63,051 nucleotides of DNA from assembly GCA_947306495.1 (NCBI GenBank), contig CAMZGT010000005.1:1-63051 (forward strand). The letters are read 5' to 3'. The notes under the pieces were generated by a model. The model saw nothing but the letters and a program-made list of their open reading frames with translations, had not been told where the DNA came from and made no database searches. Shown one piece after another: positions 13,824 to 42,844 of the stretch. Within the stretch, counting starts at the first letter, position 1. The number at the start of each line of letters is the position of its first letter. A program made the position numbers and the translations under genes. Source of the stretch: an uncultured Acinetobacter sp. (GTDB taxonomy: Bacteria; Cyanobacteriota; Vampirovibrionia; Gastranaerophilales; Gastranaerophilaceae).

Positions 13824-13850
13824 TTAACGGCATTTCTTTATATTTCTTTA
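13824..13850 (-). promoter_or_regulatory. Sigma-28-like promoter
   Basis: On the minus strand TAAAGAAA (13843-13850), 11 bases, then GCCGTTAA (13824-13831). This is the flagellar sigma arrangement TAAA-N15-GCCGATAA with one change in the -10 box. It would drive the 53-codon ORF, the CHASE2 diguanylate cyclase and trmFO. In the rest of the 394-base gap before ctpA I see only a TATAAT at 13942-13947 on the plus strand, with a TTGAAA 20 bases further upstream. Confidence 0.55.
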
Positions 13851-13985
13851 ATATTTATAAAAACGATACTTCAAACAGATGATATTTTATTGATAAAAAA
13901 AGATATTTTGAAAATTTGAAATATAAAAAATAATTGTGTAGTATAATATAAAGAGCGCTTTTTGTTTTATAAGGAGTGAGGTTAA

Positions 13986-15191
13986 ATGAAAAAAAGATTT
14001 ATAACAACCGGATTAGTGTTGTTAACAGCAGCTTTAACAACTGTAAGTAATGCATATTCCGCGACACCGGCAGAACTCTATGATAATGTATGGATGTTGG
14101 TAAATAAAAAATATTATGATCCGTCAGACAATTGTCAGGACTGGAAAAAATGGAGATATCGTTACGAAAATAAATTAAAGACAAAAGAAGATGCTTATGT
14201 AGCGATAGAAACTATGTTGGCAAGTTTAAACGACCCGTACACAAGGTTTTTAGATCCGAAAGAATTTTCGGAAGAAAATCAATCAATAAAGGGCTCATTA
14301 AAAGGTATTGGTACTCAAATAGGTATAAGAGACGGACAGTTGGTTATCATTGCACCGTTAGAAGATTCTCCTGCGGAAAGAGCCGGATTACAGGCAGATG
14401 ATGCAATACTTGAAATTAATGGCGAAAGTACAAAAGGTATCAGTATAGATGTGGCGGCTGATAAAATTCGAGGAGAAAAAGGAACAACAGTTACGTTGTT
14501 AATTCAAAGAAAAGATGTTCCAAATAAAATTTATTCTATTGTAAGAGATGAAATAGAAGTTAAATCGGTTTCTGTTAAACCGCCTTTTGAAACTGAAATT
14601 CCGAAGGACATTCAATACATACGACTGAGTTCTTTTATAAGTAAAAATGCTTCAGGAGAGATTGAGTCGATATTAAATAACTCTAAAGATGCAAAAGGAT
14701 ATATTATCGACTTGCGTTCAAACCCGGGAGGACTTTTAACGAATGCTATCTATATTTCTGATATGTTGTTAAAAGGTGGTGTTATAGTCAGTACTGTAGA
14801 CAGAGATAGTTACAAATCAACCACAAGAGCTCGCTATCAACAAGTTACCGACAAGCCTATTGTTATATTAATCAATAAAGGCTCAGCATCAGCAAGTGAA
14901 ATTCTTTCAGGAGCGTTAAAAGATAATAAACGTGCGACAATTGTAGGAGAACAATCTTTTGGGAAAGGACTTGTTCAAGAAATAAACAGATTACCTGATG
15001 AAGCAGGTTTGAATATTACAATACAAAGATATCTGACTCCGTCAGGAACCGATATTCATAAAAAAGGTATCACGCCTGATGTTGTGGTAGAATTATCAAA
15101 AGAGAATGCAGAAGCAAAAGATGATGTTCAACTTAAAAAAGCAATAGAAATTTTGGAAAATATGACATGTCTTGTACAAAAGAATGGATAG
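13986..15191 (+). CDS. ctpA: C-terminal processing protease CtpA (S41)
   Basis: A secreted serine protease of the carboxyl-terminal processing family, 401 residues. Residues 1-26 form a signal peptide. A PDZ domain spans about 95-170 (IGTQIGIRDGQLVIIAPLEDSPAERAG region). The S41 catalytic dyad is Ser302 in GSASASE and Lys327 in FGKGLVQ, with the standard 25-residue spacing. A ribosome site (AAGGAGTGAGG) precedes the ATG. It acts in the periplasm or at the envelope, trimming or degrading protein C-termini. It overlaps recJ by 25 bases, so the two are co-transcribed. In Cyanobacteria CtpA matures D1, but no photosystem genes are present here. Confidence 0.95.
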   Translation: MKKRFITTGLVLLTAALTTVSNAYSATPAELYDNVWMLVNKKYYDPSDNCQDWKKWRYRYENKLKTKEDAYVAIETMLASLNDPYTRFLDPKEFSEENQSIKGSLKGIGTQIGIRDGQLVIIAPLEDSPAERAGLQADDAILEINGESTKGISIDVAADKIRGEKGTTVTLLIQRKDVPNKIYSIVRDEIEVKSVSVKPPFETEIPKDIQYIRLSSFISKNASGEIESILNNSKDAKGYIIDLRSNPGGLLTNAIYISDMLLKGGVIVSTVDRDSYKSTTRARYQQVTDKPIVILINKGSASASEILSGALKDNKRATIVGEQSFGKGLVQEINRLPDEAGLNITIQRYLTPSGTDIHKKGITPDVVVELSKENAEAKDDVQLKKAIEILENMTCLVQKNG

Positions 15192-17497
15192 TTAGAGGTA
15201 AAAAAGACAATAAATCTATAATAGACAGTTTGCTGGAAATTAGGGGCATTAAAACAAAAGAGGCTAAAGAAGAATTCTTGAATCCGTTGGAGATAACGTT
15301 AATGCACCCTAATGCATTCTGTGATATGCCAAAAGCAGTGGAGAGAATTTGTAAAGCAATTGATGAAAAAGAACAGATTCTTATATATGGTGATTTTGAT
15401 GCAGATGGTGTTACTTCGACTTCATTGCTTTTAAAGACTTTTAATTATTTGGGAGCACAAGCGGATTTTTATATACCTGACCGTGAAACGGAAGGACACG
15501 GGATGAGCTCAAAGTCGCTTGTTAAGCTTCTCTCTCTGAAAAAGCCTAAGCTTATTATTACTGTTGATAATGGTATAAGCAATGTAGAAGAAGTGAAGTT
15601 TATAAATAGTTTCGGGAGGGATGTAATTATAACAGATCACCACGAAGCGCCGGAAGAACTCCCTTCTGCATATGCTATTATAAACCCAAAAGCAATGAAT
15701 GCGCTGGATGAAAGATTATCACCCATACAAATAGAATCTTTAACATCGTTGGCAGGTGTTGGAGTTGCATTTAAACTTGCTCAAGCAGTTTTGGAAAAGT
15801 ATGATAAATTAGACTATATTTATGAAATACTTCCATTTGTGACTGTAGGTACAATTGCGGATTTGGTTCCTCTTATTGGTGAAAACAGATATTTTGTAAC
15901 AAAAGGTTTAGACTTAATCGCAAAAGGGAAACATTACGGTTTAAAACGTATGTTAGATGTTGCCGGAGTCGGAACAGATAATGGTTTAACAGCCGAACAA
16001 ATTGCATTTACAATAGCTCCGAGAATTAATGCATCTGGAAGAATTGATACTGTAGACAATGCAATAAAAGTCATGATTTCTGAAAATAAACAAGAAATAG
16101 AAATGGCTATTCTTCAATTGGAAAACTATAATAAATTGCGTCAAGAGATGTGCGCTCAAGTTTTTGCAGAAGCAGACGAAATTCTGAAAAACACAGGTAA
16201 CAGAGACAATGCAATAGTACTTTGTTCAAAAGATTGGCACATAGGTATAATTGGTATTGTTGCATCTAAGTTCGTTGAAAAATACTATAAACCAACTTTT
16301 ATAATGAATTATTCAGAAGAAACAGGTCTTTACAGATGCTCAGCAAGAGGCGTAAATGAATTAAACTTGTACGACATCATGTTTAATATTTCAGAGTACT
16401 TTGAAGGATTTGGCGGGCACAAATTGGCAGGCGGATTTTCTTTCTTAAATGAAAAAGTTTCGTTTGAAAATGTTAAAGCTGCGCTAAATAAAACAATTGA
16501 TGAAATGCTAAATGGCAGAAAGCTATCTCCATCCTTGGAGGTTGATTTTGAATTGTCAATTAACGATGTAGATATAAGTTTAGTTGAGGAAATCTCTAAG
16601 CTGGAACCATTTGGAGCATCAAATCCTTCACCAACTTTTGTAGTTAATAATTTGACATTGAAACAAAAGAGATTAATGGGGGCAAGAAAAGAACATTTAA
16701 AACTTTCTGTTGAAGGACCGAACGGGTATATTGATTGTGTATGGTGGTCAAGAGGAGATGTTCCTTTGGTTGTCGGGGATAAATTAGATATCGCGTTTGC
16801 TCCGCAAATTAATGAATTTAACGGTTCAACTACAGTGCAGTTAATAATAAAAGATATTCATTCAGAGGCTCTAAAAGAAGAGGAAGTGGCTAAAGAAAAA
16901 ATATATGATCACAGAAAAAAAGTTAATATATTTGCTCAAGTAAATGATTATATAAAAGCAGCTCAAAAAGATGTTTTAGTTTATGTAGAAGATAATCTTA
17001 TAAAAGAGAGATTAAAACCCTATGAAAATATTTATAAAAATTGCATAAATAGAAATACTGCTCATAAATCTGATGTATTAATGTTTTTCGATTACCCGCC
17101 GGAAGAAGAAGTTTATGAACAGGTTATAAAACAAGTATCACCGGTTTCTATTCATTATATGAATTATGAAGCCGGAGTTTTCAACGAAGAAAGTTTCATA
17201 AAAATTTTTTCAGGGATGATTCGTTATACTTGCAATAATTTAGAGGGCGTATTTTCACTGAACAGAGCTGCTGCAACTCTTGCCGTTACTAATGTTGCAG
17301 TTGAGTCTGCTTTGGAAATGTTTGAAGATGCAGGAATGATAAAAATAAAAGAGCGTAAAGAAAAGGAATTTATAATAGATTTTGTTTCTGCAATAGAGCT
17401 TTCAAAGACTTTGCATACACAAAAGTACTCAGAATTTATAGAACACATTAATACAATCAAAGATTACAAAAATAAGTTTATGACAATCGAACTGTAA
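15167..17497 (+). CDS. recJ: Single-stranded-DNA exonuclease RecJ
   Basis: A 5'-3' ssDNA exonuclease used in recombination repair. The DHH-family motifs are clear: DFDADGVTS (motif I, about residue 75), TVDNGIS, ITDHHEAP (motif III), and the DHHA1 motif GFGGHKLAGGFSF near residue 420. An OB-like region and a longer C-terminal extension follow, making 776 residues, at the long end of the family. The last 200 residues (from about YDHRKKVNIFAQ) are less conserved and resemble the extra C-terminal domain of Firmicute-type RecJ proteins. The start at 15167 lies inside the end of ctpA, which suggests coupling. Confidence 0.95.
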   Translation: MSCTKEWIVRGKKDNKSIIDSLLEIRGIKTKEAKEEFLNPLEITLMHPNAFCDMPKAVERICKAIDEKEQILIYGDFDADGVTSTSLLLKTFNYLGAQADFYIPDRETEGHGMSSKSLVKLLSLKKPKLIITVDNGISNVEEVKFINSFGRDVIITDHHEAPEELPSAYAIINPKAMNALDERLSPIQIESLTSLAGVGVAFKLAQAVLEKYDKLDYIYEILPFVTVGTIADLVPLIGENRYFVTKGLDLIAKGKHYGLKRMLDVAGVGTDNGLTAEQIAFTIAPRINASGRIDTVDNAIKVMISENKQEIEMAILQLENYNKLRQEMCAQVFAEADEILKNTGNRDNAIVLCSKDWHIGIIGIVASKFVEKYYKPTFIMNYSEETGLYRCSARGVNELNLYDIMFNISEYFEGFGGHKLAGGFSFLNEKVSFENVKAALNKTIDEMLNGRKLSPSLEVDFELSINDVDISLVEEISKLEPFGASNPSPTFVVNNLTLKQKRLMGARKEHLKLSVEGPNGYIDCVWWSRGDVPLVVGDKLDIAFAPQINEFNGSTTVQLIIKDIHSEALKEEEVAKEKIYDHRKKVNIFAQVNDYIKAAQKDVLVYVEDNLIKERLKPYENIYKNCINRNTAHKSDVLMFFDYPPEEEVYEQVIKQVSPVSIHYMNYEAGVFNEESFIKIFSGMIRYTCNNLEGVFSLNRAAATLAVTNVAVESALEMFEDAGMIKIKERKEKEFIIDFVSAIELSKTLHTQKYSEFIEHINTIKDYKNKFMTIEL

Positions 17498-17566
17498 ATT
17501 TTGTTGACATTAAATTAGTTATTATTAAAAACATAGTACAAATGTATGATTTTTAAATAAAAATTT

Positions 17567-17592
17567 TAAAAATCATTAAATTATGCCGATAA
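17567..17592 (+). promoter_or_regulatory. Sigma-28-like promoter for the fliE operon
   Basis: TAAA at 17567-17570, 14 bases, then GCCGATAA at 17585-17592, which is exactly the textbook flagellar sigma -10 box. It lies 29 bases before the fliE ATG. Confidence 0.7.
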
Positions 17593-17621
17593 CACTTAAT
17601 AAATAATCAAAGAGGTGAGCT

Positions 17622-17960
17622 ATGTTTAACGGTTTTTATCCGCAATATGATTTAGAGGCAAGAATTCAGCATACAAAGCTTGACAGCTGGGGGGATATTC
17701 CATCTGCAAGAATGAATCGAGTTGAAGAACCATCAACATCTGATTTCAAAAGCGTTATGTCAGGACTTGTTGAGGGTATGAATACTTCTATGAATGCACC
17801 TGATAATATGCTGAAAGATGTTATGATGGGATCTGAAAATGTCGATATACACGATGTTATGACAGCAATGGCTAAGGCGGAACTTTCCGTTAATATTGCA
17901 ACAACAGCGGTAGGAAAAGTCATCCAAGCGTATGATAAAATAATGCAAATACAGATTTAG
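17622..17960 (+). CDS. fliE: Flagellar basal-body protein FliE
   Basis: FliE joins the MS ring to the proximal rod. The 112-residue length and the C-terminal segment KAELSVNIATTAVGKVIQA followed by YDKIMQIQI match the conserved FliE C-terminus (family pattern AELSLQ...KL.EAY.EIM.M.I). The N-terminal half is variable and contains FKSVMSGLVEGMN. AAAGAGGTGAG precedes the ATG. It is the first gene of a flagellar cluster and sits directly behind a sigma-28-like promoter. flgB and flgC, which often precede fliE, are not in the window. Confidence 0.9.
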   Translation: MFNGFYPQYDLEARIQHTKLDSWGDIPSARMNRVEEPSTSDFKSVMSGLVEGMNTSMNAPDNMLKDVMMGSENVDIHDVMTAMAKAELSVNIATTAVGKVIQAYDKIMQIQI

Positions 17961-18008
17961 GCTTCTCATAAACACTAAATATGTGTATAATAATTACAGG
18001 GTAGGATT

Positions 18009-19676
18009 ATGGATTTTAAACAATTACTAGAAAACAAAGTTTTATTAGGCTCAATCATCGGAGGTATTGTACTCCTCTTAGTTGTGTTTATTATAGCAGG
18101 AACCGTTGCTTCTTCAAATAAAACAGCTAAAGAAGGAGTTGATGTCAGTAATGAGCCTTTGAAAGAAGATGTAGATTTACTTACCACCGATAATTTGGGT
18201 AAAGCATTAGAAATACAAGCTTTGCTGGCTAAAAACAATATTGTTGCTTCCCGTTTAGTAGATGGTACTAAATCTGTTTTGAGATTGAAAAAAGGTGACT
18301 GCACCCCTGGAATGAAGAAATGTACAACTGAGCAACGCGACAGAGCAATAATGGTAATTGTTGAAAGCGGTTTATATGACCAAAATGTTGGTTTGGAAAT
18401 TTTTGATAAAGGTGACTTTACATCTACTAAAGAAGATAAAAGAATAAGATTAGTTCGTGCAATGAATGGCGAACTTTCAAGATTAATTAAAAGAATTGAC
18501 GGTATAGAAGATGCCTCGGTATTTATTTCCATTCCGGAGCAATCTATGTTCCAGTCTAATCAAAAACCTGTGACGGCAACGGTACAGTTGACAGTTGCTG
18601 TTGGTCAGACTTTAAATATGGGAACTATTAAGGCTGTTTCTAATTTGCTGTTAGGAAGCGTTTCCGGACTTACAGCGTCTAATATATCCGTAACTGATAC
18701 TAACGGTCATGTATACAACAGTCTTGTAGATGCACAATCAGAAATGATTGAACGCCTGCAGCAAAATGATAAATATATGCAGGAAAAGGTTCAAGCTCAA
18801 TTAAACAGATTAATTGGTAACGGAAAATATGTCGCTACGGTTTCAACTTTTTTGAAGCAAGCTCCTGTTGAAAAGTTTACTATTTCATATGATCCTGATA
18901 AAAAGGCTGCTGTTAACGAGCAAACATTCTCTGAAGGATTGGGAGATCAAACAACTGATGTTAATAAAAATACAAATGCGGTAAGTGTATACCTTCCAAA
19001 CGGATTACCCGCAGGCAGTTCTGATTCTTCTCAAAACAGGAGTTATTCAAGAACAGCACGAGAGACTCAATATGGTGTAACAAAAGTACAAACTAATGAA
19101 TACATGTCTCCAGGAACAATTGAGGAAATTTCAATTGCAGTTACATTGGAAAAAGATGCCCTTCCGGTTGAATTGACATTGGAAGAATTAAAGGAATTGG
19201 TTGCCCATGCTGCCAGTCCGAAAGCAGACCCTAATAACGTAACAATAGCATTTTCTGATTCTATTGATCCTTTTATGGCCGGTGACAAAAATGTTAAAGC
19301 ACCAATTAAGGCAGCTCACGGAAATCCTTGGTGGTTAGCAATAGTACTATTATTCTTCGGTTTATTATTTGGTCATAATATTTTGACGCAGAAAATTAAA
19401 TCAGCTAAAGAGGCTCAAGAAGATGAAATTAACAGATTGAGAGCTCAGAACGAAGCTCAGGAAAAACAAATAAAGGATTTGAGTATTAATGCAGCAGATT
19501 TGATACAAAAACAATCGCAACTTCAGCAAGGGCTTTTGGAACAACAACAAAGGCCTGCTGCTATACCTACATCAGGAGCTGAAATCAGAGAAGCGTTGCG
19601 TGACCTTAAAAGAGAATTCGACGGTGTGGATGAATCTGAAGCAGGTGAGCGCATAAAGAGTTGGATAGAGGGTTAG
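18009..19676 (+). CDS. fliF: Flagellar MS-ring protein FliF
   Basis: FliF builds the membrane-embedded MS ring that anchors the motor and export gate. The first membrane helix spans about residues 12-34 and the second about 436-458 (WWLAIVLLFFGLLFG). Between them are the ring-building repeats, including RLVRAMNGELSRLIKRIDG and VSVYLPNGLPAGSS. The cytoplasmic tail is a Gln-rich coiled coil and ends with EAGERIKSWIEG, which should bind FliG. At 555 residues it is within the family range. GGTAGGAT precedes the ATG, 48 bases after fliE. Confidence 0.95.
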   Translation: MDFKQLLENKVLLGSIIGGIVLLLVVFIIAGTVASSNKTAKEGVDVSNEPLKEDVDLLTTDNLGKALEIQALLAKNNIVASRLVDGTKSVLRLKKGDCTPGMKKCTTEQRDRAIMVIVESGLYDQNVGLEIFDKGDFTSTKEDKRIRLVRAMNGELSRLIKRIDGIEDASVFISIPEQSMFQSNQKPVTATVQLTVAVGQTLNMGTIKAVSNLLLGSVSGLTASNISVTDTNGHVYNSLVDAQSEMIERLQQNDKYMQEKVQAQLNRLIGNGKYVATVSTFLKQAPVEKFTISYDPDKKAAVNEQTFSEGLGDQTTDVNKNTNAVSVYLPNGLPAGSSDSSQNRSYSRTARETQYGVTKVQTNEYMSPGTIEEISIAVTLEKDALPVELTLEELKELVAHAASPKADPNNVTIAFSDSIDPFMAGDKNVKAPIKAAHGNPWWLAIVLLFFGLLFGHNILTQKIKSAKEAQEDEINRLRAQNEAQEKQIKDLSINAADLIQKQSQLQQGLLEQQQRPAAIPTSGAEIREALRDLKREFDGVDESEAGERIKSWIEG

Positions 19677-19696
19677 TTATATTAACAGAAAGGAAT

Positions 19697-19725
19697 TTGT
19701 GAATATTTGAGAAAGTTGTTATAAA
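19697..19725 (+). promoter_or_regulatory. Candidate sigma-70-type promoter before the fliG-like gene
   Basis: TTGTGA (19697-19702), a 17-base spacer and TATAAA (19720-19725), in the 109-base gap after fliF. It would allow internal expression of fliG-like, fliH and flhA. Confidence 0.4.
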
Positions 19726-19785
19726 TTGAATTAGTGTAAAATCGCTCAATTAAATAATTACTTAATCACGTAGTCACTTAATGTT

Positions 19786-20820
19786 ATGCCAATAGAAGGA
19801 TTTGATTATAAAGGTTTTGCAACATCAATGGCTGAACAAGCAAGAGAGCTTGTTCCAAAAGAGTTGGAAGATAGGGAAAAAGACTATGTTGTAAAAACGT
19901 TAGGCAATTTCACGCTTCTTGCAGGTGAAGCATTATATAATGATGAAAGCTTGAAACTTACTCCAGAACAAGCTGTTTTTATCACTCAAGTAATAGCGGA
20001 ATGGTCTTTTCACAAGTCTATCGATTTGATTCATTCGGGCATTTTGCCGCAATATTGGGATGGAATAATGCAAAAAATTGCTTTTACTATTTTTGAAGTA
20101 GCAAAGCAAGCTGTTATAAGAAATATTCCTCAAGACCAAATGCTTCAAGCAGTGGAACATCATGTTGTTAAAGTTTACAAGTCGAGTATTGAAGAACTTG
20201 AGCAAAAAGGTATAATCAATGAAGAGGTAAAAAACAGAGCAGAAAGTCAATCAAATATTGATGCTATGGCTCAGCAAGTTCAGGAAGAACAGCAAAGGCA
20301 ACAAGCAGAAGCTGCTAAGCAAGAGAAAAAAGAACGTGAAGAAGTACAAAAACGCAGGGAAGATGTAAAAAAACAACGGCAGCAAAAAACAGTTACAGAA
20401 CTGCAAGGTATAAGCAATAAGCAAATGAAGTTAATGACATTGGCTTTAGTCCTTAAGATTTTATCTCAAGATAAAGTAACTACAATACTGAATAAATTTG
20501 ATGCTGATGATTCAATGCAGATATCAAAGTACATGGATATGGCTGATTTAGAATCCCATCTCGACGGAGCACTTGTCACGGATTGCTTAAAGGAAATAAA
20601 AGAATTTCTTCCTACAAAGAGAAAACTTACAAAAGAGAATGTACTGGGTGATTTGTTAAGAATATATAGAACATCACCAAGAGAGCAAATTGAAAAAATA
20701 GTCAAAAACGAAAGACCTTTAGTTAAGAGATTTTTATCTCAAGCGTATGACGGAGAGTTTTCTGATTTGCCGCTAAGGGTTGCTGGTATTGTTGCACAAT
20801 ATGTTGAGGATAGTATATAA
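19786..20820 (+). CDS. Divergent FliG-like flagellar protein
   Basis: 344 residues, placed between fliF and fliH where the switch protein FliG normally sits. Residues 1-140 are helical and unlike standard FliG. Residues about 155-205 form a highly charged Gln/Lys/Arg coiled coil. Residues about 215-344 (LALVLKILSQDKVTTILN, FDADDSMQISKYMDMADLE) weakly resemble a FliG-type helical domain. The EHPQ motif of the FliG middle domain and the charged torque helix of the FliG C-terminal domain are not seen. It may be a degenerate FliG, a FliF-binding adaptor or something new. No Shine-Dalgarno sequence is obvious before the ATG. Confidence 0.65.
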   Translation: MPIEGFDYKGFATSMAEQARELVPKELEDREKDYVVKTLGNFTLLAGEALYNDESLKLTPEQAVFITQVIAEWSFHKSIDLIHSGILPQYWDGIMQKIAFTIFEVAKQAVIRNIPQDQMLQAVEHHVVKVYKSSIEELEQKGIINEEVKNRAESQSNIDAMAQQVQEEQQRQQAEAAKQEKKEREEVQKRREDVKKQRQQKTVTELQGISNKQMKLMTLALVLKILSQDKVTTILNKFDADDSMQISKYMDMADLESHLDGALVTDCLKEIKEFLPTKRKLTKENVLGDLLRIYRTSPREQIEKIVKNERPLVKRFLSQAYDGEFSDLPLRVAGIVAQYVEDSI

Positions 20821-20832
20821 TATTAATAAATC

Positions 20833-21588
20833 ATGATAATCAAGAAAAACAAACAGAAATTGAGGGAGCAAAAAGAGGTAATAGAAAAAGATGCAATGGC
20901 ATCTTCAATTTTTGTGTCTGATGAATTTAAAGAAGAAGAAGGATTCTCGGACGGTGTTCTTCATCAAGAAGAATCTACTGATGATATTGATTTATTTGAT
21001 ATAGAAAATATTGACTTTACTCAACGTGAAGAGCGCAGGCGCGGAACAAGAAGACGTGGTTATAGACGTATTGATGACAGGAATCTTGTTTCAAGAGCTC
21101 AGGAAGAGGCTGAAAATATTAAGCGTTCAGCATACGAAGAGGGCTATCGTATCGGATTAGAAAAAGCTTCGGAGGATTTACAGAAGCTCAGAGATAATAT
21201 GAAAAACTTCATGAATGCTACTCAAGAGGTTTTTGAGTACATTGCTCCTGATATTTTGGAAATAAGTGTTAGTATTGCAAAAAAAATTATAAAAAAAGAA
21301 GTTGAGAGTGATCCTCAGATTTTAGTTAATACAATTGTAGATGTTTTAAAAACCGTAACAAAAAGTGAACCGAAAGTGAGTATACGTGTGCGTCCGCAAT
21401 CGGTTAATTTTATTAAAGACACTTTACCTAATGTTACTTACGAGTATGGTATAGATTCAAAAATAAATATCATATCAGACCCTTCTATAGAAGAAGGCGG
21501 GTGCGTTTTGCAAACAAATAACGGTATTGTAGACGCCTCTATTGACACTCAGTTAGAAATTATTAAAAAAGCATTAGAGGGAATATAA
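20833..21588 (+). CDS. fliH: Flagellar export regulator FliH
   Basis: FliH regulates the FliI export ATPase at the base of the flagellar secretion system. The 251-residue protein has an acidic N-terminus, an Arg-rich patch (REERRRGTRRRGYRRID), then the typical AQEEAENIKRSAYEEGYRIG coiled coil and a C-terminal FliH/HrpE domain with ISVSIAKKIIKKE and SDPSIEEGGC, both family hallmarks. The Arg-rich patch before the coiled coil is unusual. It starts 12 bases after the fliG-like gene and its stop overlaps the flhA start. Its normal partner fliI is not in the window. Confidence 0.9.
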   Translation: MIIKKNKQKLREQKEVIEKDAMASSIFVSDEFKEEEGFSDGVLHQEESTDDIDLFDIENIDFTQREERRRGTRRRGYRRIDDRNLVSRAQEEAENIKRSAYEEGYRIGLEKASEDLQKLRDNMKNFMNATQEVFEYIAPDILEISVSIAKKIIKKEVESDPQILVNTIVDVLKTVTKSEPKVSIRVRPQSVNFIKDTLPNVTYEYGIDSKINIISDPSIEEGGCVLQTNNGIVDASIDTQLEIIKKALEGI

Positions 21589-23678
21589 TGGCAGCAGAAG
21601 GACAACAGAGTAAACCTATATCAGAAATCTTTCTTGCACTCTTCGTAATGACGCTTGTTTTAATTTTGATTATGGAGATGCCAACTTGGGTTATAAATTT
21701 TTCTATAAGTTTAAATATAACCTTGGGTATTGTTCTTTTAATGATATCTTTGTATGTTCAAAAACCATTAGAATTGGCGGCTTTTCCGTCAATTATACTT
21801 ATAGGTACTATGTTTCGATTGGTACTTTCAATTGCGTCTACCCGTCTAATATTAGCAAAGGGTGATGCAGGCGAAGTCGTGCATGCATTCGGAACTTTCG
21901 TTACCGGCGGAAATATGGTAGTTGGTGCTGTAATCTTTTTGATTATTACAGTTGTACAATTTATGGTAATCACAAAAGGTGCAGAACGTATAGCCGAAGT
22001 TGCAGCACGTTTTGCCTTAGATGCTATGCCAGGTAAACAGATGACTATTGATGCTGATTTTAATGCAGGTCTTATTTCTCCGGAAGAAGCTGTTAAGCGT
22101 CGTGAAGATTTGCAAAGAGAATCAAGCCTTTTTGGTTCTATGGATGGTTCAATGAAATTCGTTAAAGGTGATACTATGGCTGGTATCATCATTGTTATAA
22201 TAAATATTGTAGGCGGTTTATGTGTCGGTTGTTTAATGAACCAAATGCCCATTGCTGATGCTGTTGGAAAATATACAGTTTTAACAATAGGTGACGGCCT
22301 TGCTTCACAGTTACCCTCTCTTTTGATGTCAATAGCAGCAGGTATAGTTATGACAAGAGCTTCTGCGGGGAACGCTTCTTTGGGTGGTGATTTGACAAAT
22401 CAAATTATGTCAAAACCTTATTCTCTGTTTTTTGCAGCTTTGTTTTTAGGTTTGATAACAGTCACTTGTCCTATTACAGGTCTGCCATTCTTGCCATTCT
22501 TGATATTTACAATAGGTCTTGCATTGGCAGGTTTCTCCGTATTAGTTAACGCAGATGTACAATCTCAATTGGGACAGTTAGAAAGTGTTCGCCAAAATAT
22601 GCAAGATTTGGTTAATCCAAATAAGATGTATGAAAGGCTTGGTGTTGATGTTTTAAGCTTGCAGGTTGGTGCGGGCTTGCTTGTTATTGCTGATCCGGAC
22701 CAAGAAGGTCAATTGCTTGCTAAAATAGCTGCTTTGCGTCAAAGAGTTACAGATGAGTTAGGATATATTTTGCCGAATATTCGTATTATGGATTCTTCCG
22801 CCTTGGAGGCAAATGAATATGTTATTTCTATTCGTAATAATGTTGTTGCATCTGGTTATGTGTATCCGGGAAAATTTATGGTTATAGCTGATCAGTGGGA
22901 TTCTGTTAAGAAAAATATACCGGAAGATGCAATCATAGGTGTTGATCCGACATACCAAACTCAGGCTTATTGGATATCTGAAGAAGATGCGAAAGCTGCT
23001 AAAAATGTTACTGCCGTAGATGCAACAGATGTATTGGTAACGCACTTACAAGAATGTGTAAGAAAACACGTTGATGAAGTTATGACAAAAACAGATGTAC
23101 TGAAGCTTATGGAACTTGTTCGTTCGCAAGATCCGACTCTAGTTAATGATTTGGTTCCTGCAATTATTTCAACATCAGATTTGCGTAAAATATTTGTTAA
23201 CTTAATTAGAGAAAAAGTGTCAATTAAGGATATTATTTTTGTATTTGAGCGGCTTTGCGATTACGCAAGGTTTTCAAAAGAACCGGATATTCTTTCTGAG
23301 AGACTGCGTGCAGCATTAGGGCGTCAAATTTGTTTAAGTAATGTAGACAGAGATCACGTATTATATGCGTTGACTCTTTCTCCAGAATGGGAAAAAACAC
23401 TTGATGACAGTTGTCAAAGAACTGAACTTGGAACAATGTTTTTGCTCAATCCTATGCAGGTCCAAGATTTAATAGAATCAACTGCAATGACTTTAATGCG
23501 TGCTCACCAATCAATAGGTCAACAGCCTGTAATACTTTGTTCTCCAAGAATACGTTTACCTTTATACCAACTTCTCGAAAGGCATATTCCGACAATTGTT
23601 GTTATATCTTATTCAGAACTTATTACTGATATAAAAGTTGAAGCTGTTGATACAATTGGTGAAAATGCCGGCTATTAG
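21588..23678 (+). CDS. flhA: Flagellar export gate protein FlhA
   Basis: FlhA is the large export-gate subunit of the flagellar type III secretion system. The 696-residue length is standard. Eight membrane helices fill about residues 15-310. The FHIPEP signature region reads FRLVLSIASTRLIL, and GKQMTIDADFNAG and RREDLQRESSLFG are typical of the cytoplasmic FHIPEP loop. The cytoplasmic C-terminal half (FlhA-C) follows, ending VEAVDTIGENAGY. It overlaps the fliH stop, so the two are coupled. Confidence is very high. Confidence 0.98.
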   Translation: MAAEGQQSKPISEIFLALFVMTLVLILIMEMPTWVINFSISLNITLGIVLLMISLYVQKPLELAAFPSIILIGTMFRLVLSIASTRLILAKGDAGEVVHAFGTFVTGGNMVVGAVIFLIITVVQFMVITKGAERIAEVAARFALDAMPGKQMTIDADFNAGLISPEEAVKRREDLQRESSLFGSMDGSMKFVKGDTMAGIIIVIINIVGGLCVGCLMNQMPIADAVGKYTVLTIGDGLASQLPSLLMSIAAGIVMTRASAGNASLGGDLTNQIMSKPYSLFFAALFLGLITVTCPITGLPFLPFLIFTIGLALAGFSVLVNADVQSQLGQLESVRQNMQDLVNPNKMYERLGVDVLSLQVGAGLLVIADPDQEGQLLAKIAALRQRVTDELGYILPNIRIMDSSALEANEYVISIRNNVVASGYVYPGKFMVIADQWDSVKKNIPEDAIIGVDPTYQTQAYWISEEDAKAAKNVTAVDATDVLVTHLQECVRKHVDEVMTKTDVLKLMELVRSQDPTLVNDLVPAIISTSDLRKIFVNLIREKVSIKDIIFVFERLCDYARFSKEPDILSERLRAALGRQICLSNVDRDHVLYALTLSPEWEKTLDDSCQRTELGTMFLLNPMQVQDLIESTAMTLMRAHQSIGQQPVILCSPRIRLPLYQLLERHIPTIVVISYSELITDIKVEAVDTIGENAGY

Positions 23679-27909: not shown

Positions 27910-28019
27910 AATATTCTCCGCTTTTCATTATCAGTACAATCGTATCAAAAAAATAATAAGGTTTCACTCAGTCCGAATAGGCAATTTGTAAATTTTTGTT
28001 ACAATTATTTTAATAACAC

Positions 28020-28046
28020 TAAAGTTTTGAAAGATTTTGCCGTTAA
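28020..28046 (+). promoter_or_regulatory. Sigma-28-like promoter for the glucosaminidase-like gene
   Basis: TAAAGTTT (28020-28027), 11 bases, then GCCGTTAA (28039-28046). This matches the full enteric flagellar consensus TAAAGTTT-N11-GCCGATAA with one change. It ends 33 bases before the ATG at 28080. Confidence 0.68.
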
Positions 28047-28079: not shown

Positions 28080-28919
28080 ATGCCTGATCCTATTGATATA
28101 AAAAGCTTATCAGGAGCCGAAAAATTTATTGCCCAAAAGAGTGATATTTTAAATCATAATCAAAAGATAGAGGGTGATGAAGTCAGTATCTTTAATGCTG
28201 CTATCAAAGAATATGAAAAAAGCGGAAAACAAAGGTTTTCAGTATTAGGTACAGTATATGAAAGGGTTGGTGAGACCTTTAAAATTGTTCGTTCATTTTT
28301 CCAAAGAGATGATAAAGAAAGTCTATTAACTGAAGGTCTGCCAAATGATGCAACTCGTGTAGAAACACTTGTACCGCCTGAAATATTAAATATAACAAAG
28401 GATGAAAATAAAGCTCCTGTTAAAATAAATACAAAATTTACAGCGAACACAAGTGTTAGTTGGGACGAGTCACAAGCTCCTGACGAAAAAACTTTTGAAA
28501 AAGCATTAGAAAGTTTGATTCCACCAAACAGCAAATTAAAAGGTCAAGCAAAATATTTTATAGAAAAATCAAAAAAATATGGAATAAATCCATTCTTTTT
28601 GGTATCAATTGCGATGCACGAATCAGCCAGGGGGAATTCAAGTGCCGCACAAAATCACAACAATGTCGGCGGTATAAATGATACAATACAAGCAAGAAAA
28701 CTTCACAGAAAATTTTTTGCAAGAGATTTTAGTAGTGTTGATGATTGTATAGAAATCATGGCAAAAACTGTTGCAAAAAGACAAAGTGAACAATATACAA
28801 CAGTAGGTAAAGTCGCTTTTTCTGGTCGTTACTGTGGTAAAAGTGAAGGTCACGGTTGGCAAAAAGCAGTATTATCTTTTATGGAAAGCTTAAGAACTAA
28901 ATACAATAGTTTTACGTAA
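28080..28919 (+). CDS. Glucosaminidase-like peptidoglycan hydrolase with EF-hand-like N-terminus
   Basis: 279 residues. Residues 22-40 (LNHNQKIEGDEVSIF) form an EF-hand-like loop shared with the 917-residue protein at 7490. A linker follows, and the C-terminal 130 residues match the glucosaminidase/FlgJ-like lysozyme fold: YFIEKSKKYGINPFFLVSIA, MHESARGNSS with the likely catalytic Glu, and NNVGGIND. No signal peptide is seen, as in FlgJ, whose export is flagellar. A sigma-28-like promoter precedes it. I infer a muramidase that opens the wall for rod growth, but substrate and export are unproven. A GGAG lies just before the ATG. Confidence 0.8.
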   Translation: MPDPIDIKSLSGAEKFIAQKSDILNHNQKIEGDEVSIFNAAIKEYEKSGKQRFSVLGTVYERVGETFKIVRSFFQRDDKESLLTEGLPNDATRVETLVPPEILNITKDENKAPVKINTKFTANTSVSWDESQAPDEKTFEKALESLIPPNSKLKGQAKYFIEKSKKYGINPFFLVSIAMHESARGNSSAAQNHNNVGGINDTIQARKLHRKFFARDFSSVDDCIEIMAKTVAKRQSEQYTTVGKVAFSGRYCGKSEGHGWQKAVLSFMESLRTKYNSFT

Positions 28920-35800: not shown

Positions 35801-35855
35801 AAATTGATTAATGCTGGCTATTATGCTAGTATAACAGTAAGTACGGAGAAGAATT

Positions 35856-36665
35856 TTGCAGTATCAAGGAAAAGATAGTAAAACATATGAGCAGGTCTCT
35901 AAATGGCTTTTAGAGTATCGTAATGAAAAAGACAGTACTAAAAAAAGTAAAATAAAGACTCGTATTGTTACAAACATGCTTCCAATAGTTAAGCGTATTG
36001 CTAAGACAATTGCAAGACGAGACTATGACCCTATTGAAGATTTGGAGCAAGCCGGATCTATAGGATTGCTGCGTGCTATTGATAGCTATTCATCTGAGGT
36101 TAATGATAATTTTAGGTTCTATGCAGGTTCTGTGATTATTGGAGAGATGAAACATTATTTGAGGGATAAGCTTAATGCAATAAAAGTTCCGAGATATATT
36201 CAAGAATTAGCGTATCGCATAAATTCTTTTACAAGTTCTTTAACTTATGAAGAGCTTAGTGAACTTACTAGTGACTACGTATCAGAGGCATTGAATGTTA
36301 CTACTCAAGAAGTTGATTATGCTATGATGGCAGACAGAAGAACAAAAGTTATATCTTTAGAGGTTATTCGAGGTGCAGATTCTGACAATATGACATTTGA
36401 CGATATTTTGCCTGCTGAAGATTATGTGGAAGCCTCAGAACTTGCCGATGCAAGACTTATTGTTAGAAATGTAATAAACAAGCTTCCGGATGAGTATAAA
36501 GAAATCATTGAACTATATTATTATGAAGATATGAGCCAGCATGATATTGCTGTAAAACTTGAAATGACAGATATGCAGACTTCAAGAAAACTAAAAAAAG
36601 CTTTTGGTATGTTATATGAAATGATAGCTGATTCAAATTGGGAATTCCCTGTTATAGGAGCGTAG
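35856..36665 (+). CDS. Alternative sigma-70 family factor (FliA/SigF/SigB-like)
   Basis: 269 residues from a TTG start preceded by GGAGAAG. Region 2 has DPIEDLEQAGSIGLLRAIDSY and GEMKHYLRD, the latter typical of the SigB/SigF branch rather than classical FliA. Region 3 follows (IKVPRYIQELAYRI), and region 4 has DEYKEIIELYYYEDMSQHDI with a helix-turn-helix. It lacks region 1.1. It is a candidate for reading the sigma-28-like promoters in this window, though a second flagellar sigma could exist elsewhere. It lies two bases before the prepilin peptidase start, so the two genes are coupled. Confidence 0.88.
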   Translation: MQYQGKDSKTYEQVSKWLLEYRNEKDSTKKSKIKTRIVTNMLPIVKRIAKTIARRDYDPIEDLEQAGSIGLLRAIDSYSSEVNDNFRFYAGSVIIGEMKHYLRDKLNAIKVPRYIQELAYRINSFTSSLTYEELSELTSDYVSEALNVTTQEVDYAMMADRRTKVISLEVIRGADSDNMTFDDILPAEDYVEASELADARLIVRNVINKLPDEYKEIIELYYYEDMSQHDIAVKLEMTDMQTSRKLKKAFGMLYEMIADSNWEFPVIGA

Positions 36666-36667
36666 TA

Positions 36668-37567: not shown

Positions 37568-37588
37568 CTTTAAAATAAATTCCTAAAC

Positions 37589-37616: not shown

Positions 37617-37683
37617 GCTAATAGATAAGTAAGTTTAGGGGAATTAATTTTTAAGTAAGATTTGTAAAAATATTTGTTAAAAT

Positions 37684-37857
37684 TTATTTTTTTACTCGGG
37701 ATATAAATGTTACCCGCGATTTCATATCCATTGCGAACAGTCGCATTTCATCAACAAGTACATATGATTTGTTATCAACAGGATTATCCTGAATGAAAAA
37801 ATCTCTTGAAATGTTTGTCGCCATTGCATTAATGGCATAGCTGTCTAATACTGCCAT
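37684..37857 (-). CDS. 57-residue small protein
   Basis: From ATG 37857 to TAA 37684, encoding MAVLDSYAINAMATN... with DNPVDNKSYVLVDEMRLFAMD and a basic C-terminus. It has a GTGAGG ribosome site 7 bases upstream and normal codon use for this genome. A terminator follows. No family is recognised. A perfect 14-bp palindrome (37876-37889) lies 19 bases upstream of the ATG and could be an operator or an mRNA hairpin. Confidence 0.65.
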   Translation of the reverse strand: MAVLDSYAINAMATNISRDFFIQDNPVDNKSYVLVDEMRLFAMDMKSRVTFISRVKK

Positions 37858-38197
37858 CTCGATACCTCACTTAGGGTCCTTATAAGGACGTTTTTACTTA
37901 AGCCGTCAAAAACTTTAATTAGTGCAATCCAAGGGGTGCCGAATTAATTCTTGCGGTTTCTCTTAATATTGCTTACATATACAAATTTGTAATGTAAATT
38001 TTTTGTTGCTCTCTTAAATTTGTCTTACATATATATAAAGTATATATAAAGAAAGGAATTTCAAACAAAGACAAATATGTTACAAAAGTTTACAATATAT
38101 ACTATAGTATATATACTCATGCAAGTGTTGAAACTTAGTAATAGCTCGATTTTTAAGTTGTTTTTGTAAAGATTTGTAAATATTTTTATTAAAAAGC
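37858..38197. other. Divergent intergenic region with palindromes
   Basis: About 340 AT-rich bases between the 57-residue gene and the 156-residue gene. It holds the palindrome GTCCTTATAAGGAC (37876-37889), repeated TATATATAAAG blocks (about 38025-38050) and a perfect 20-bp palindrome centred on CTATAG (38095-38114). On the minus strand a TTGACG lies about 18-19 bases before the TATAAG inside the first palindrome, a possible operator-promoter overlap. No convincing ORF is seen. Confidence 0.5.
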
Positions 38198-38224
38198 TAA
38201 AGTTTTTAGAAAATGTGCCGATAT
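38198..38224 (+). promoter_or_regulatory. Sigma-28-like promoter
   Basis: TAAAGTTT (38198-38205), 11 bases, then GCCGATAT (38217-38224). This is the full flagellar consensus with a single change in the last base. It ends 29 bases before the ATG at 38254. Confidence 0.7.
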
Positions 38225-38253
38225 ACATTATATATCGTATAAGAGGTGTCGTT

Positions 38254-38724
38254 ATGTCAAATTTCACTGTAAACGGAGTATATTCATATACCAGTTCTAA
38301 TATTTATTCATATCTGGGACGTGTACCAACAAATTCCAGAGAACTCAAAGATGCCTTTTCTAAATATGATATCACGCCAACGGGAACAGCTGATGATTTA
38401 AAAAAACTTAATCGTGCTATGTACAGTGAGTATTCCGCTCAAGTACAAGAGCAGATGAAAAACCAGAACAACCCGCAAGTTGTTCCTTGGGCAGGAATAT
38501 GTGCACAAATAGGTGTGCAGGCAACAGGTGATTACGAAAAAGATTTTGCAGCTTTTAATGATGCCATAAAGTTATTAAGTCAAAGTGCAGTTGACGGTCA
38601 GGCGATGGCTTATTTTGCAGGTTTAAGAAGTGAAGCACAGATTGCATTTGGTCTTTCTAATAAACCTGAGGCTCAACAGCAGCCCATATCATTTGAGATG
38701 TATAAAGCTCAATTCCTATCTTAG
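38254..38724 (+). CDS. Unknown 156-residue protein under a sigma-28-like promoter
   Basis: From the ATG at 38254 (GAGGTG upstream), 156 residues, beginning MSNFTVNGVYSYTSSNIYSYL. There is no signal peptide or membrane segment. It is mostly helical with a Gln-rich middle (QVQEQMKNQNNPQ) and ends with ISFEMYKAQFLS. An in-frame ATG at 38215 overlaps the promoter and is unlikely. Its promoter suggests expression with flagella, so it may be an exported or cytoplasmic motility accessory protein. No family recognised. Confidence 0.75.
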   Translation: MSNFTVNGVYSYTSSNIYSYLGRVPTNSRELKDAFSKYDITPTGTADDLKKLNRAMYSEYSAQVQEQMKNQNNPQVVPWAGICAQIGVQATGDYEKDFAAFNDAIKLLSQSAVDGQAMAYFAGLRSEAQIAFGLSNKPEAQQQPISFEMYKAQFLS

Positions 38725-38746
38725 GGACATGGCTTTGGTAAAGTTT

Positions 38747-38785
38747 GGCACGGTTGTGATAGGTCACGACCGTGCCCTTGTTTTT
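38747..38785 (+). terminator. Rho-independent terminator
   Basis: A 12-bp GC-rich stem (38747-38758 with 38765-38776, one G-T pair), a 6-base loop, then CTTGTTTTT. It ends the 156-residue gene unit. Confidence 0.8.
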
Positions 38786-38801
38786 GTGTTATTATATCTT
38801 T

Positions 38802-39503: not shown

Positions 39504-39507
39504 ATAA

Positions 39508-40047: not shown

Positions 40048-40568
40048 TATATCCTCAATTAATTTTAGAATTTTTTAAAATAGGTTTGTTTTCTTTTGGC
40101 GGTGGTTATGCAACAATCCCATTTTTATATCATATTTCAGTAACCTATGGCTGGTATTCTTTAGCTGAGTTATCACAAATGACAGCTGTAGCATCTATTA
40201 CACCCGGACCTGTGGGAATAAATGTTGCAACTTATGCAGGTCTAAAAGTCGGAGGAATTATCGGGGCACTATGTGCAACAATATCTGAAATGCTGCCATC
40301 ATTAATTTTGGTAATTATTGTATCAAGAGTATTAAATAAATTTAGCGATAACTATTATGTAAAGACTTTGATAGAAACATTAAAACCTATAAGCTGTGCT
40401 TTATTATTGTCAGTGGCAGTTGGTTTAGTAAAACCGAATTTAGGTGATATAAATGCCCTAATTTTGTTAGTTTTTTTGTTGCTGCTAAGTTGGAAGTCAA
40501 AAAAGAGTCCGCTTTTTTATATTTTAATATCTGCGTTATTGGGTGTAATTAATACGACCATGCTATAA
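40044..40568 (+). CDS. Chromate transporter, second half-size subunit
   Basis: 174 residues, the partner of the previous gene, with FFKIGLFSFGGGYATIPFL and ASITPGPVGINVATYAGLK, the second CHR signature. It has about six hydrophobic segments. The 4-base overlap shows coupled translation, as expected for two halves of one antiparallel transporter. Confidence 0.87.
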   Translation: MIYPQLILEFFKIGLFSFGGGYATIPFLYHISVTYGWYSLAELSQMTAVASITPGPVGINVATYAGLKVGGIIGALCATISEMLPSLILVIIVSRVLNKFSDNYYVKTLIETLKPISCALLLSVAVGLVKPNLGDINALILLVFLLLLSWKSKKSPLFYILISALLGVINTTML

Positions 40569-40601
40569 TAAATTTAATCATACGATTAAAGGGAGAAAAA
40601 T

Positions 40602-41882
40602 ATGTTAAAATCAGTAATTTTGGCTGCCGGAAAAGGTACAAGAATGAAGTCTGAAACACCAAAAGTTTTGCATACCATTTTTGATAAAACCTTGGTAGGG
40701 TATGTTATAGAGGCTGTTAATAATACCGGGTTGGCCGATGAAAATTTTGTGGTAGTTGGTCATCAGGCAGAAAAAGTAGAAGAGCATGTTAAAAAGAATT
40801 ATTCTAATGCAAGGACGGTTCTTCAATCGCCGCAATTAGGAACGGGGCATGCAGTAAGCATGGTATTGCCGTATCTGGAAAACTTTGAGGGTGAAGTTAT
40901 AGTTTTATGCGGTGACACTCCGCTCATAACAGCAGAAACTCTTAAGGAGTTTGTTGAATTTCACAGAAAAAGTTCATCTGATTTAACCGTTATGAGTGCG
41001 ATGTTTGATAATCCTGCAAACTACGGCAGAATAATAAGAAATTCAATTGGAGTAGAATCGATTGTAGAAGAAAAAGATGCTACAGTTGAACAAAAGGCCG
41101 TCAAGGAAATAAATGCAGGAATTTACTGTTTAGATTGGAGTAAAGTTAAATATGCTTTTTCAGAGCTTAAGACTAACAATGCTCAAGGTGAATACTATTT
41201 AACGGATATTATTAAATGGGGTAACGAAAAAGGACTTAAGGTAAATGCTTATACCTTAAAAAACAATGAAGAAATTTTTGGTATAAATTCAAAATCTAAT
41301 TTGGCTCAGGCTGCAAAAATGCTAAACAGAAGAATTATTAATAAACATTTAGATGCGGGTGTAACAGTTGTAGATCCTGATACAACATGGATTAGTCCTG
41401 AAACAATTATAGAACAGGATACTGTAATATATCCGATGACTTATATAGAAGGAAAAAATAAGATAGGTAAAAATTGTAAAATAGGTCCTTTTGCTCATCT
41501 TCGCGGCGATGTAGTGTTGGAAGATTTTGTTAAAGTCGGTAATTTTGTTGAAGTTAAGAAAACAACAATAAAATCTAATACAAATGCGTGCCATCTTTCT
41601 TATATAGGTGACAGTGAAGTTGGTTCAAATGTAAATATAGGAGCGGGTACAATTACTGCTAACTATAACCCACTGACTAAAGAAAAAAGCAAAACTATAA
41701 TAGGAAATAATGTAAAAATCGGTTCTAATTCTGTTTTAGTTGCGCCTGTTACAATAGAAGAGGGTGCGAACGTTGGGGCGTTAAGTGTTATTACTAAAGA
41801 TATTCCGTCTTGGGCGCTTGCAATAACCCGTGCACCGATAAAGATAGTTGAAGACTGGGTAAAAAAGGTCCTGAAGGGATGA
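40602..41882 (+). CDS. glmU: Bifunctional UDP-N-acetylglucosamine pyrophosphorylase / GlcN-1-P acetyltransferase
   Basis: GlmU makes UDP-GlcNAc for peptidoglycan and lipopolysaccharide. The N-terminal uridyltransferase has LAAGKGTRMKSETPKVLH (residues 6-23), QLGTGHAV and VLCGDTPL. The C-terminal left-handed beta-helix acetyltransferase has GNFVEVKK, the catalytic His in CHLSYIGD, and NIGAGTITANYN. At 426 residues it is about 30 residues shorter than E. coli GlmU, but both active sites are intact. AGGGAGAAAA precedes the ATG. Confidence 0.95.
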   Translation: MLKSVILAAGKGTRMKSETPKVLHTIFDKTLVGYVIEAVNNTGLADENFVVVGHQAEKVEEHVKKNYSNARTVLQSPQLGTGHAVSMVLPYLENFEGEVIVLCGDTPLITAETLKEFVEFHRKSSSDLTVMSAMFDNPANYGRIIRNSIGVESIVEEKDATVEQKAVKEINAGIYCLDWSKVKYAFSELKTNNAQGEYYLTDIIKWGNEKGLKVNAYTLKNNEEIFGINSKSNLAQAAKMLNRRIINKHLDAGVTVVDPDTTWISPETIIEQDTVIYPMTYIEGKNKIGKNCKIGPFAHLRGDVVLEDFVKVGNFVEVKKTTIKSNTNACHLSYIGDSEVGSNVNIGAGTITANYNPLTKEKSKTIIGNNVKIGSNSVLVAPVTIEEGANVGALSVITKDIPSWALAITRAPIKIVEDWVKKVLKG

Positions 41883-41973
41883 CCTTTAATAGGGTTAAAT
41901 ATTTATGTTATGCCTTGTTTTCGTGTCTATCTTGTCGGATTTTGATTTGGCTTATGTACTGAAATAATAAATA

Positions 41974-42002
41974 AGGATATGGCTTTTTGATTGCCATATC
42001 CT
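41974..42002 (-). terminator. Hairpin between glmU and the collagen-like gene
   Basis: A perfect 10-bp stem (41974-41983 with 41993-42002). On the minus strand a TATTTATTATTT tail follows, so it probably ends the collagen-like gene; on the plus strand no T-run follows. Confidence 0.5.
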
Positions 42003-42032
42003 GTGTGTTAGAAGATATAAGTATTTGATTTA

Positions 42033-42731
42033 TTACGTGTAGTAAGGGGAAATAATTCGACTAATTGTTTTTTGTTGTCCGTTAGGAGCTGTTATTGTAA
42101 CTGATAAATTATATCCGTCAGGATCTTCCATCCCTCTGTAAACCTTTTCATACTTGCCGGTTAATCGTTGATTTTTACCCTTACCTTTTGTTGACACCGC
42201 AACAGGATCAATTTCTATACTGATCATAAAACCATCCATGTCCGCTTTTTCTACAATCGGACGGAATTGCTCGTATGCTAATTTTCGTACGTCCGAGAAA
42301 TTATTTTGTATTTCTTTATTTATGATTTTTCTTAAAAGCATTGTTCTACAATTATTTATCAATGAAGTTGCATACGTATTATAGAAATCTAACTTTTCTT
42401 CAGTTGCCTCAGTTCCTGTTGCACCTGATGCCCCTGTTGCACCTGATGCTCCAATACCACTTGATACTACGTCTGTACGTACATTAATCTGAACACCTTT
42501 ATAATTTGCAATGTTTTTAGCATTTAAATTTTCTGTAGCAATACTGCTTTCTCCCATGCTTCCGGTAGCGCCATCAACTCCTGTTGCACAGCTTGCACCA
42601 GACGCACCATCAGCACCAGTAGCACCCGTAGCTCCACTAGCTCCTGGTGCATTTGCTTTTTTTTGAGCAGTCTTTTTTGGGTCTGCTAAAAACGGTACAT
42701 GTAAATTTCTGTATCCTGAGATTCCACCCAT
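42033..42731 (-). CDS. Collagen-like Gly-X-Y protein
   Basis: 232 residues. Two runs of Gly-X-Y triplets (about 30-60 and 94-106) use mainly GAS, GAT and GAD. One Gly is replaced by Cys48 (TGT for GGT), interrupting the first run. Between and after the runs are non-collagen segments; the C-terminal 120 residues are helical then beta-rich (FMISIEIDPVAV, YNLSVTITAPNG). No signal peptide is present. GAAAGGAGAC precedes the ATG. Bacterial collagen-like proteins are usually surface fibres, and a sigma-28-like promoter suggests a motility link. Short repeats of this kind may also expand or contract. Confidence 0.82.
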   Translation of the reverse strand: MGGISGYRNLHVPFLADPKKTAQKKANAPGASGATGATGADGASGASCATGVDGATGSMGESSIATENLNAKNIANYKGVQINVRTDVVSSGIGASGATGASGATGTEATEEKLDFYNTYATSLINNCRTMLLRKIINKEIQNNFSDVRKLAYEQFRPIVEKADMDGFMISIEIDPVAVSTKGKGKNQRLTGKYEKVYRGMEDPDGYNLSVTITAPNGQQKTISRIISPYYT

Positions 42732-42817
42732 GTCGTGTCTCCTTTCGTTGTTTTACTATACTTTATTTTATACAATATGTGTTAATACACAAAAGTAAAA
42801 AATATTGACATTATGTA

Positions 42818-42844
42818 TTAACGGCACAAATTTAAAAAACTTTA
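42818..42844 (-). promoter_or_regulatory. Sigma-28-like promoter for the collagen-like gene
   Basis: Minus strand: TAAAGTTT (42837-42844), 11 bases, GCCGTTAA (42818-42825), identical in both boxes to the site at 28020. It leaves a leader of about 80 bases containing the inverted repeat TGTGT-TAAT-ACACA (42778-42791). Confidence 0.65.

Follow-up and report, generated by a model that had tools for sequence, protein, structure and literature searches.

HLR1-type boxes in helical phase upstream of sigma-28-type promoters in a genome of the Gastranaerophilales

The stretch of DNA analysed here (the window, 63,051 nucleotides) contains five sequences that resemble promoters of the flagellar sigma factor sigma-28, the consensus core of which is TAAAGTTT-N11-GCCGATAA. 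The original prediction placed the five in one motility regulon, and the question is whether they form one class, which proteins act at them and which genes they serve. The pattern TAAA-N14/15-GCCGWTAW occurs at the five predicted places, on the predicted strands, and nowhere else in the window; 100 dinucleotide shuffles gave a mean of 0.14 matches and a maximum of 2. The sites were said to be intergenic, and none of them lies in an ATG-started ORF of at least 100 aa, a class of ORFs which covers 87% of the window. The full TAAAGTTT-N11-GCCG form is found, as proposed, at 28020, 38198 and 42818. These three sites and the genes behind them are:

38198..38224, plus strand: canonical sigma-28 core TAAAGTTTT-N10-GCCGATAT (pattern; matrix score 32.3 bits)
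38254..38724, plus strand: 156-aa protein of unknown function with 433 homologues at E <= 0.001
28020..28046, plus strand: canonical sigma-28 core TAAAGTTTT-N10-GCCGTTAA (pattern; matrix score 27.8 bits)
28080..28919, plus strand: glucosaminidase-domain protein (PF01832, 44.6 bits, cut-off 30.2) with no Sec-like N-terminus
42818..42844, minus strand: canonical sigma-28 core TAAAGTTTT-N10-GCCGTTAA (pattern; matrix score 30.3 bits)
42033..42731, minus strand: collagen-like protein (GATGATGAD...), Pfam Collagen 23.2 bits, below the cut-off of 27.2

The matrix was made from 32 TAAAG sites of the same genome, four of the window sites included. The site ahead of the CHASE2 unit scores 15.1 bits, which is near the next best background match in the window (13.8 bits), and the best score in the reversed window is 10.8 bits. 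The fliE site, which has a spacer one base shorter, falls outside the matrix scoring. The idea of a single class of five sites therefore holds for the three canonical ones; the fliE and CHASE2 sites are conserved but degenerate. An Rfam scan of the window gave no matches at the gathering threshold.

The genome to which the window belongs (1.65 Mb in 60 contigs, 92% complete) was searched with the strict pattern, which gave 40 matches compared to 3 for a reversed-pattern control. The canonical form TAAANTTTT-N9/10-GCCGWTAW is present in 33 of the 40, every one of them exactly 27 bp long, and all 33 combine a TAAA -35 element with the GTTT extension, a GCCGATAA-type -10 element and fixed spacing. 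The seven others are the fliE and CHASE2 sites, one located at the start of a contig (C14:5) and four apparent chance matches (C9:27881, C12:12568, C19:17615 and C25:872). It should be noted that the 33 are not fully independent: two sites at contig ends (C7:55864 and C20:27, i.e. L014 and L028) have a common core and may be one repeat, both being counted, and upstream sequence is common to L002 and L035, to L025 and L036, and to both sites of L032. The prediction could have failed by an occurrence of the motif inside genes; none of the 33 canonical sites lies within an ORF of at least 100 aa. On these sequence criteria the genome carries dozens of sigma-28-type promoters, and it also encodes a FliA, so that the sigma-28 reading of the sites and their extension to a genome-wide set both stand.

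The reader of the promoters had been proposed to be the sigma factor at 35856 or another FliA.

35856..36665, plus strand: SigB/SigF/SigG-like sigma factor (150 bits, under that model's cut-off of 234)

Among the seven Sigma70_r2 matches of the genome, this protein reaches only 89 bits with the FliA_WhiG model (cut-off 189.6); it is not a FliA and hence an unlikely reader of sigma-28 promoters. The second half of the proposal fared better, since L046, encoded on contig C30, scores 223 bits with the same model and can be aligned to the FliA of E. coli (6pmi) across regions 2 and 4. The genes served are mostly not the expected ones. The genome has 6 Flagellin_N and 8 Flg_bb_rod matches, from which our flagellar gene labels derive. 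Canonical sites are present at none of 11 flagellar gene starts, 4 flagellins included, several of these starts being inside operons and a twelfth (L058) having been dropped because it has no upstream DNA. Relaxed sigma-28 matches occur at 2 of the 11 starts; one of the two is plausible, and one flagellin has a relaxed site. The name of motility regulon therefore suits the set poorly.

An ORF is faced by 31 of the 33 canonical sites, the remaining two being at contig ends. Four of the 31 targets are at most 60 aa (L006, L013, L019 and L023) and were kept outside the Pfam scan. Of the 27 proteins scanned, three exceed a curated cut-off, i.e. a GAF/HD-GYP protein (L024), a calpain-like protease (L031) and the glucosaminidase at 28080, and none matches a flagellar structural family. 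By a simple hydrophobicity rule a Sec-like N-terminus is found in 1 of the 31 targets, and three more have internal hydrophobic stretches. The targets are thus mostly uncharacterised, lineage-specific proteins rather than known flagellar genes. For the 156-aa protein behind 38198 the predicted structure (27 sequences, mean pLDDT 53.7) was too poor for a fold search. Three targets (L007, L034 and L063) make up what we call the SQAR family; they have their terminal segments in common and a variable, beta-rich middle, and there are over 2,000 homologues at E <= 0.001. The model of L063 (73 sequences, mean pLDDT 88.3) has an N-terminal helix at residues 2-47 and a C-terminal one at 424-499. In a Foldseek search with this model flagellar chains head the list at low probability, and coiled-coil proteins score equal or higher in a second aligner; a search with the SQAR profile gave just 2 solved chains with E values up to 1, and both are unconvincing. 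The family may be axial-protein-like.

A conventional motility regulon in which the sigma factor at 35856 reads the promoters of all five genes agrees with the presence of fliE among the five and with a core that is the sigma-28 consensus. It is at variance with the FliA_WhiG scores, in which 35856 fails whereas L046 passes, and with canonical sites that are missing from all 11 flagellar starts and are found before mostly unknown proteins. We regard it as highly improbable.

The most telling feature of these promoters, a phased box upstream of the core, was absent from the original prediction. Alignment of the DNA upstream of the sites gave the tandem repeat TGTAAM-N5-TGTAAM with a 10-bp period. 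This is the reverse complement of KTTACAWW-N2-KTTACAWW, which the accessible parts of two papers give as HLR1, the box of the response regulator RpaB (PMC13421787; PMC11633204). In the strict set 25 of 39 upstream regions score 15-16 of 16 compared to 0.14 expected from dinucleotide shuffles (the fortieth site is at a contig start and has no upstream DNA); the opposite orientation is seen in 2 of the 39. Counted on the canonical sites, 25 of 33 have a box scoring at least 15/16, and 8 of 33 lack such a box, 42818 among them. For the 33 canonical sites the boxes start at -35 relative to TAAA (17 hits), at -45/-46 (7), at -25 (2) and at -79 (1), and they usually end 17 bp before TAAA, sometimes 7, 27 or 28 bp. 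By their sequence positions the starts lie near one face of the helix, i.e. in helical phase. An UP-element was considered as another reading of the repeat; it is less likely in view of the fixed G/C positions, the single orientation and the shuffled expectation of 0.14. In the upstream sequence common to the canonical sites of L025 and L036 an unusual G-rich stretch, GGGACGAGGTCGAGGGAGA, replaces the HLR1. The matches at the three canonical sites of the window are:

38163..38180, plus strand: HLR1-type box, 16/16, 17 bp before the TAAA of 38198
27985..28002, plus strand: HLR1-type box, 15/16, 17 bp before the TAAA of 28020
42908..42925, minus strand: weak and doubtful HLR1-like match, 14/16, 81 bp upstream of the TAAA of 42818

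Which protein would bind the boxes? The genome has three OmpR-family DNA-binding domains. One of the proteins, L071, scores 355 bits with the RpaB equivalog model NF045944 (cut-off 330). Its segment DTRVVDVHISRLR, which we take to be at the location of the recognition helix in OmpR-family proteins, is identical in four cyanobacterial RpaB proteins (Calothrix, Prochlorococcus, Synechococcus and Acaryochloridaceae). L071 is 82-93% identical to proteins of Candidatus Gastranaerophilales and of rumen, horse and other MAGs, and 66-70% identical to RpaB of photosynthetic cyanobacteria. By sequence, then, the genome encodes an RpaB orthologue. The same relatives assign the organism to the sister lineage of the cyanobacteria that lacks photosynthesis, close to Ca. 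Gastranaerophilales. In an alignment of L071 with L163, L198, L208 and L213, the single Cys which the four cyanobacterial RpaB proteins have in common is a Thr in the three from Gastranaerophilales. That non-photosynthetic Melainabacteria have kept homologues of rpaA, rpaB and nblS, which may have another function, has been noted since 2013 (PMC3787301; PMC4040986, both in the accessible parts), and the former reports there the partner kinase NblS. The two other proteins, L072 (C18) and L073 (window 57119-57820), could in principle bind the boxes if they had an RpaB-like half-site. Both have RpaB as their best NCBIfam model, with scores below the cut-off (212 and 210 bits against 330), and L072 adjoins a GAF/HD-GYP gene with a canonical sigma-28 site. 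L071 is the one protein of the three that exceeds the RpaB cut-off and retains the recognition segment of the cyanobacterial proteins, which differs in L072 and L073; we therefore find binding by L072 or L073 unlikely.

The model that we propose is that RpaB, bound in helical phase upstream, co-activates promoters that are read by the FliA protein L046, and we give it a probability of roughly two in three. FliA would read the sigma-28 cores, and the RpaB orthologue would occupy the tandem HLR1 upstream of the -35 element. On the assumption of a start site 7 nt downstream of the -10 element, the usual box would lie at about -69 to -52. The available text of PMC13421787 places activating RpaB boxes at -66 to -45 and repressing ones at -38 to +23, overlapping the start. 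At such an activator-like position RpaB might contact the polymerase and aid FliA-RNA polymerase, so that transcription would depend on the flagellar sigma factor and on a two-component signal together. The model draws on both motifs, on their phase and orientation, on their conservation across genomes and on the presence of genes for FliA and RpaB; from these we infer binding by RpaB, activation rather than repression, the start sites, the signal and any export of the products.

RpaB could also bind as a repressor, or it could serve nearby promoters, the FliA cores then being independent of it. Cyanobacterial RpaB does repress from boxes that overlap the start (PMC13421787, in the part available), and many HLR1 boxes in this genome precede a different core. 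The boxes at the sigma-28 sites are upstream of -35 and in fixed phase, unlike the repressing positions given in that source, and we hold this alternative to be quite unlikely.

The HLR1 boxes with a different core deserve some description. The genome has 49 perfect HLR1 boxes compared to 1 in the control, and 2 of the 49 are inside ORFs. With the pattern used, a sigma-28 core follows 13 of the 49 boxes. Among the remaining 36, there are 9 with an ACTTTAT that begins 37-38 nt downstream, and several with TGAAAT or GGCAATTTT some 14-17 nt downstream. Core-less boxes of this kind (window 38079-38096 on the minus strand, L033, L087, L091, L103, L219, L220, L222 and L223) often have a ACTTTATATATATGTAAG-like sequence at a fixed distance behind them, with TGAAAT or GGCAATTTT in between. 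It is possible that HLR1 with the ACTTTATATATATGTAAG-like sequence constitutes a second class of RpaB-linked promoters; since many HLR1 boxes precede another core, RpaB would be a wider regulator and the FliA promoters one class of its targets. Downstream of the box at 38079-38096, after a long leader, there is a minus-strand ORF of 57 codons (37684-37857), which is a candidate for coding only. Upstream of a flagellin gene whose start is at about 62136 and whose end lies beyond the window there is a 15/16 HLR1 box (62014-62031, plus strand), and no sigma-28 core was seen there.

The occurrence of the combined element was followed in the order and in the phylum. A composite pattern, made of a half-box and a sigma-28 core, matches in 95 of the 146 genomes searched within the order, with a total of 2 control matches. 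A draw of 244 genomes of the phylum includes 136 from outside the order, and none of these 136 has a match. The composite is clade-limited: 51 of the 146 are without it, though 142 of the 146 encode a FliA that passes the cut-off. Nine genomes of the window's genus have 14-39 composites each; in the composite counts a site is counted twice when both half-sites fit. The counts are high in a few other genera and low or zero in many. HLR1 alone is more widespread, being present in each of the 146 genomes of the order; the nine genomes of the genus have 40-69 boxes apiece compared to 1-6 in controls. In the families f2-f5 and f7 there are just 1-13 perfect HLR1 boxes per genome compared to 0-5 in controls. 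In 30 sampled loci, one of them from the genome studied here, 31 sites were inspected; the box is at -35 in 18, at -34 in 3 and at -25 to -23 in 3, and 7 of the 31 have no box of 14 or more. The loci had been selected by a pattern that requires one half-box 7-27 bp before TAAA, so that these positions are evidence for the phase of the box and not for its presence. Of the 29 sampled composite sites in other genomes 13 precede homologues of targets in this genome, 4 of the 13 belonging to the SQAR family and 2 being short matches.

The two degenerate sites of the window have to be treated apart:

17567..17592, plus strand: sigma-28-like site ahead of fliE, degenerate, with a spacer shorter by one base and without HLR1
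17622..23678, plus strand: fliE, fliF, an unassigned ORF, fliH and flhA
13824..13850, minus strand: sigma-28-like site ahead of the CHASE2 unit, likewise degenerate and without HLR1
13655..13816, minus strand: conserved small ORF of 53 codons (MNLHEEC...), downstream of this site and ahead of the CHASE2 gene
11750..13591, minus strand: CHASE2-GGDEF protein

The site at 13824 was predicted to lie ahead of the CHASE2 unit. The orientation is right; the small ORF intervenes, its start being 7 nt downstream of the -10 element, and the transcript could therefore be almost leaderless. Both degenerate sites are without the GTTTT extension, and their best HLR1 match is 12/16, which is the usual value in shuffled sequence. 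Both are conserved in the genus. CCGATA is found within 75 bp upstream of fliE in 24 of 27 loci, the window's own included, with TAAA 12-18 nt before it in 19, and the longer GCCGATA in 5 of the 27. For the CHASE2 unit 26 of 28 loci could be used, one being without the small ORF and one having too little upstream DNA; the small ORF is preceded by TAAAG-N13..15-CG[AT] in 25 of the 26 and by TAAAG[AT]nnGTCAA also in 25, the exception to the latter being the window's own locus. These sites are conserved elements of a degenerate type, perhaps belonging to another sigma factor. In relatives of the genus which have both genes on one contig, fliE and the CHASE2 gene are on opposite strands, separated by a few hundred bases. 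In the window an S41 peptidase gene and recJ are between them (13591-17622), and by eye a common box can be seen on both sides.

For fliE and CHASE2, then, another sigma factor or regulator may be at work at sites which merely look sigma-28-like, an explanation that is compatible with co-activation at the canonical promoters. It agrees with the missing GTTTT and HLR1, with GCCGATA in just 5 of the 27 fliE loci and with a box resembling AAAATCATCnGTTTGTACTA that, by eye, is common to the upstream regions of fliE and CHASE2. The sigma-28-like elements themselves speak against it, since CCGATA and the TAAAG-N13..15-CG[AT] arrangement are kept at nearly all loci with the frequencies given above. 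We regard it as a tentative possibility.

At the canonical promoters the preferred reading remains co-activation by RpaB and FliA. It offers a concrete and testable set of RpaB targets in the form of dozens of promoters that have a sigma-28 core and, upstream of it at a fixed phase, the box. This reading touches the question of what a cyanobacterial regulator does in a cell without photosynthesis, and it gives a common gut lineage a defined, mostly uncharacterised regulon. Going by sequence, the box at sigma-28 promoters points to a job of RpaB that is unrelated to light. As a speculation, which we consider doubtful as a whole, RpaB and HLR1, known from the control of photosynthesis, could in gut Gastranaerophilales give the flagellar sigma-28 checkpoint an additional input; the two would license a large set of non-Sec proteins, some of them axial-protein-like, with the flagellar export apparatus as their way out of the cell, and this role may be older than light control or parallel to it. 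Among the matches listed in the literature there was no paper that links RpaB or HLR1 to FliA promoters.

The nearest known system is the RpaB/HLR1 regulon of photosynthetic cyanobacteria, in which RpaB is a regulator of light stress. So far as the available portions of the sources describe it, the likeness consists in an RpaB orthologue over the cut-off, in the same 18-bp box and in a box position that would be comparable to the published activating one if the start lies where we assume it; the box here reads as the reverse complement of the consensus string as published. Photosynthetic cyanobacteria lack flagella (PMC3787301, in its accessible part). The system described here differs in that the box is joined to sigma-28 cores in a host without photosynthesis, and in the exchange of the shared cyanobacterial Cys for Thr in the three Gastranaerophilales RpaB proteins. 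With the late flagellar regulons of E. coli and B. subtilis it has in common the core and a sigma factor of the FliA family. Unlike these, most sites here have a phased upstream box, flagellin and other flagellar genes are mostly without canonical sites and the targets are mostly lineage-specific. Activator sites of the OmpR/PhoB type are direct repeats with a 10-bp period upstream of the promoter, as is the box described here, which is joined to sigma-28 and not to sigma-70 cores; we know of no such sites joined to sigma-28 cores on this scale. The parts are known, and what is new is their combination and the setting in which they are found.
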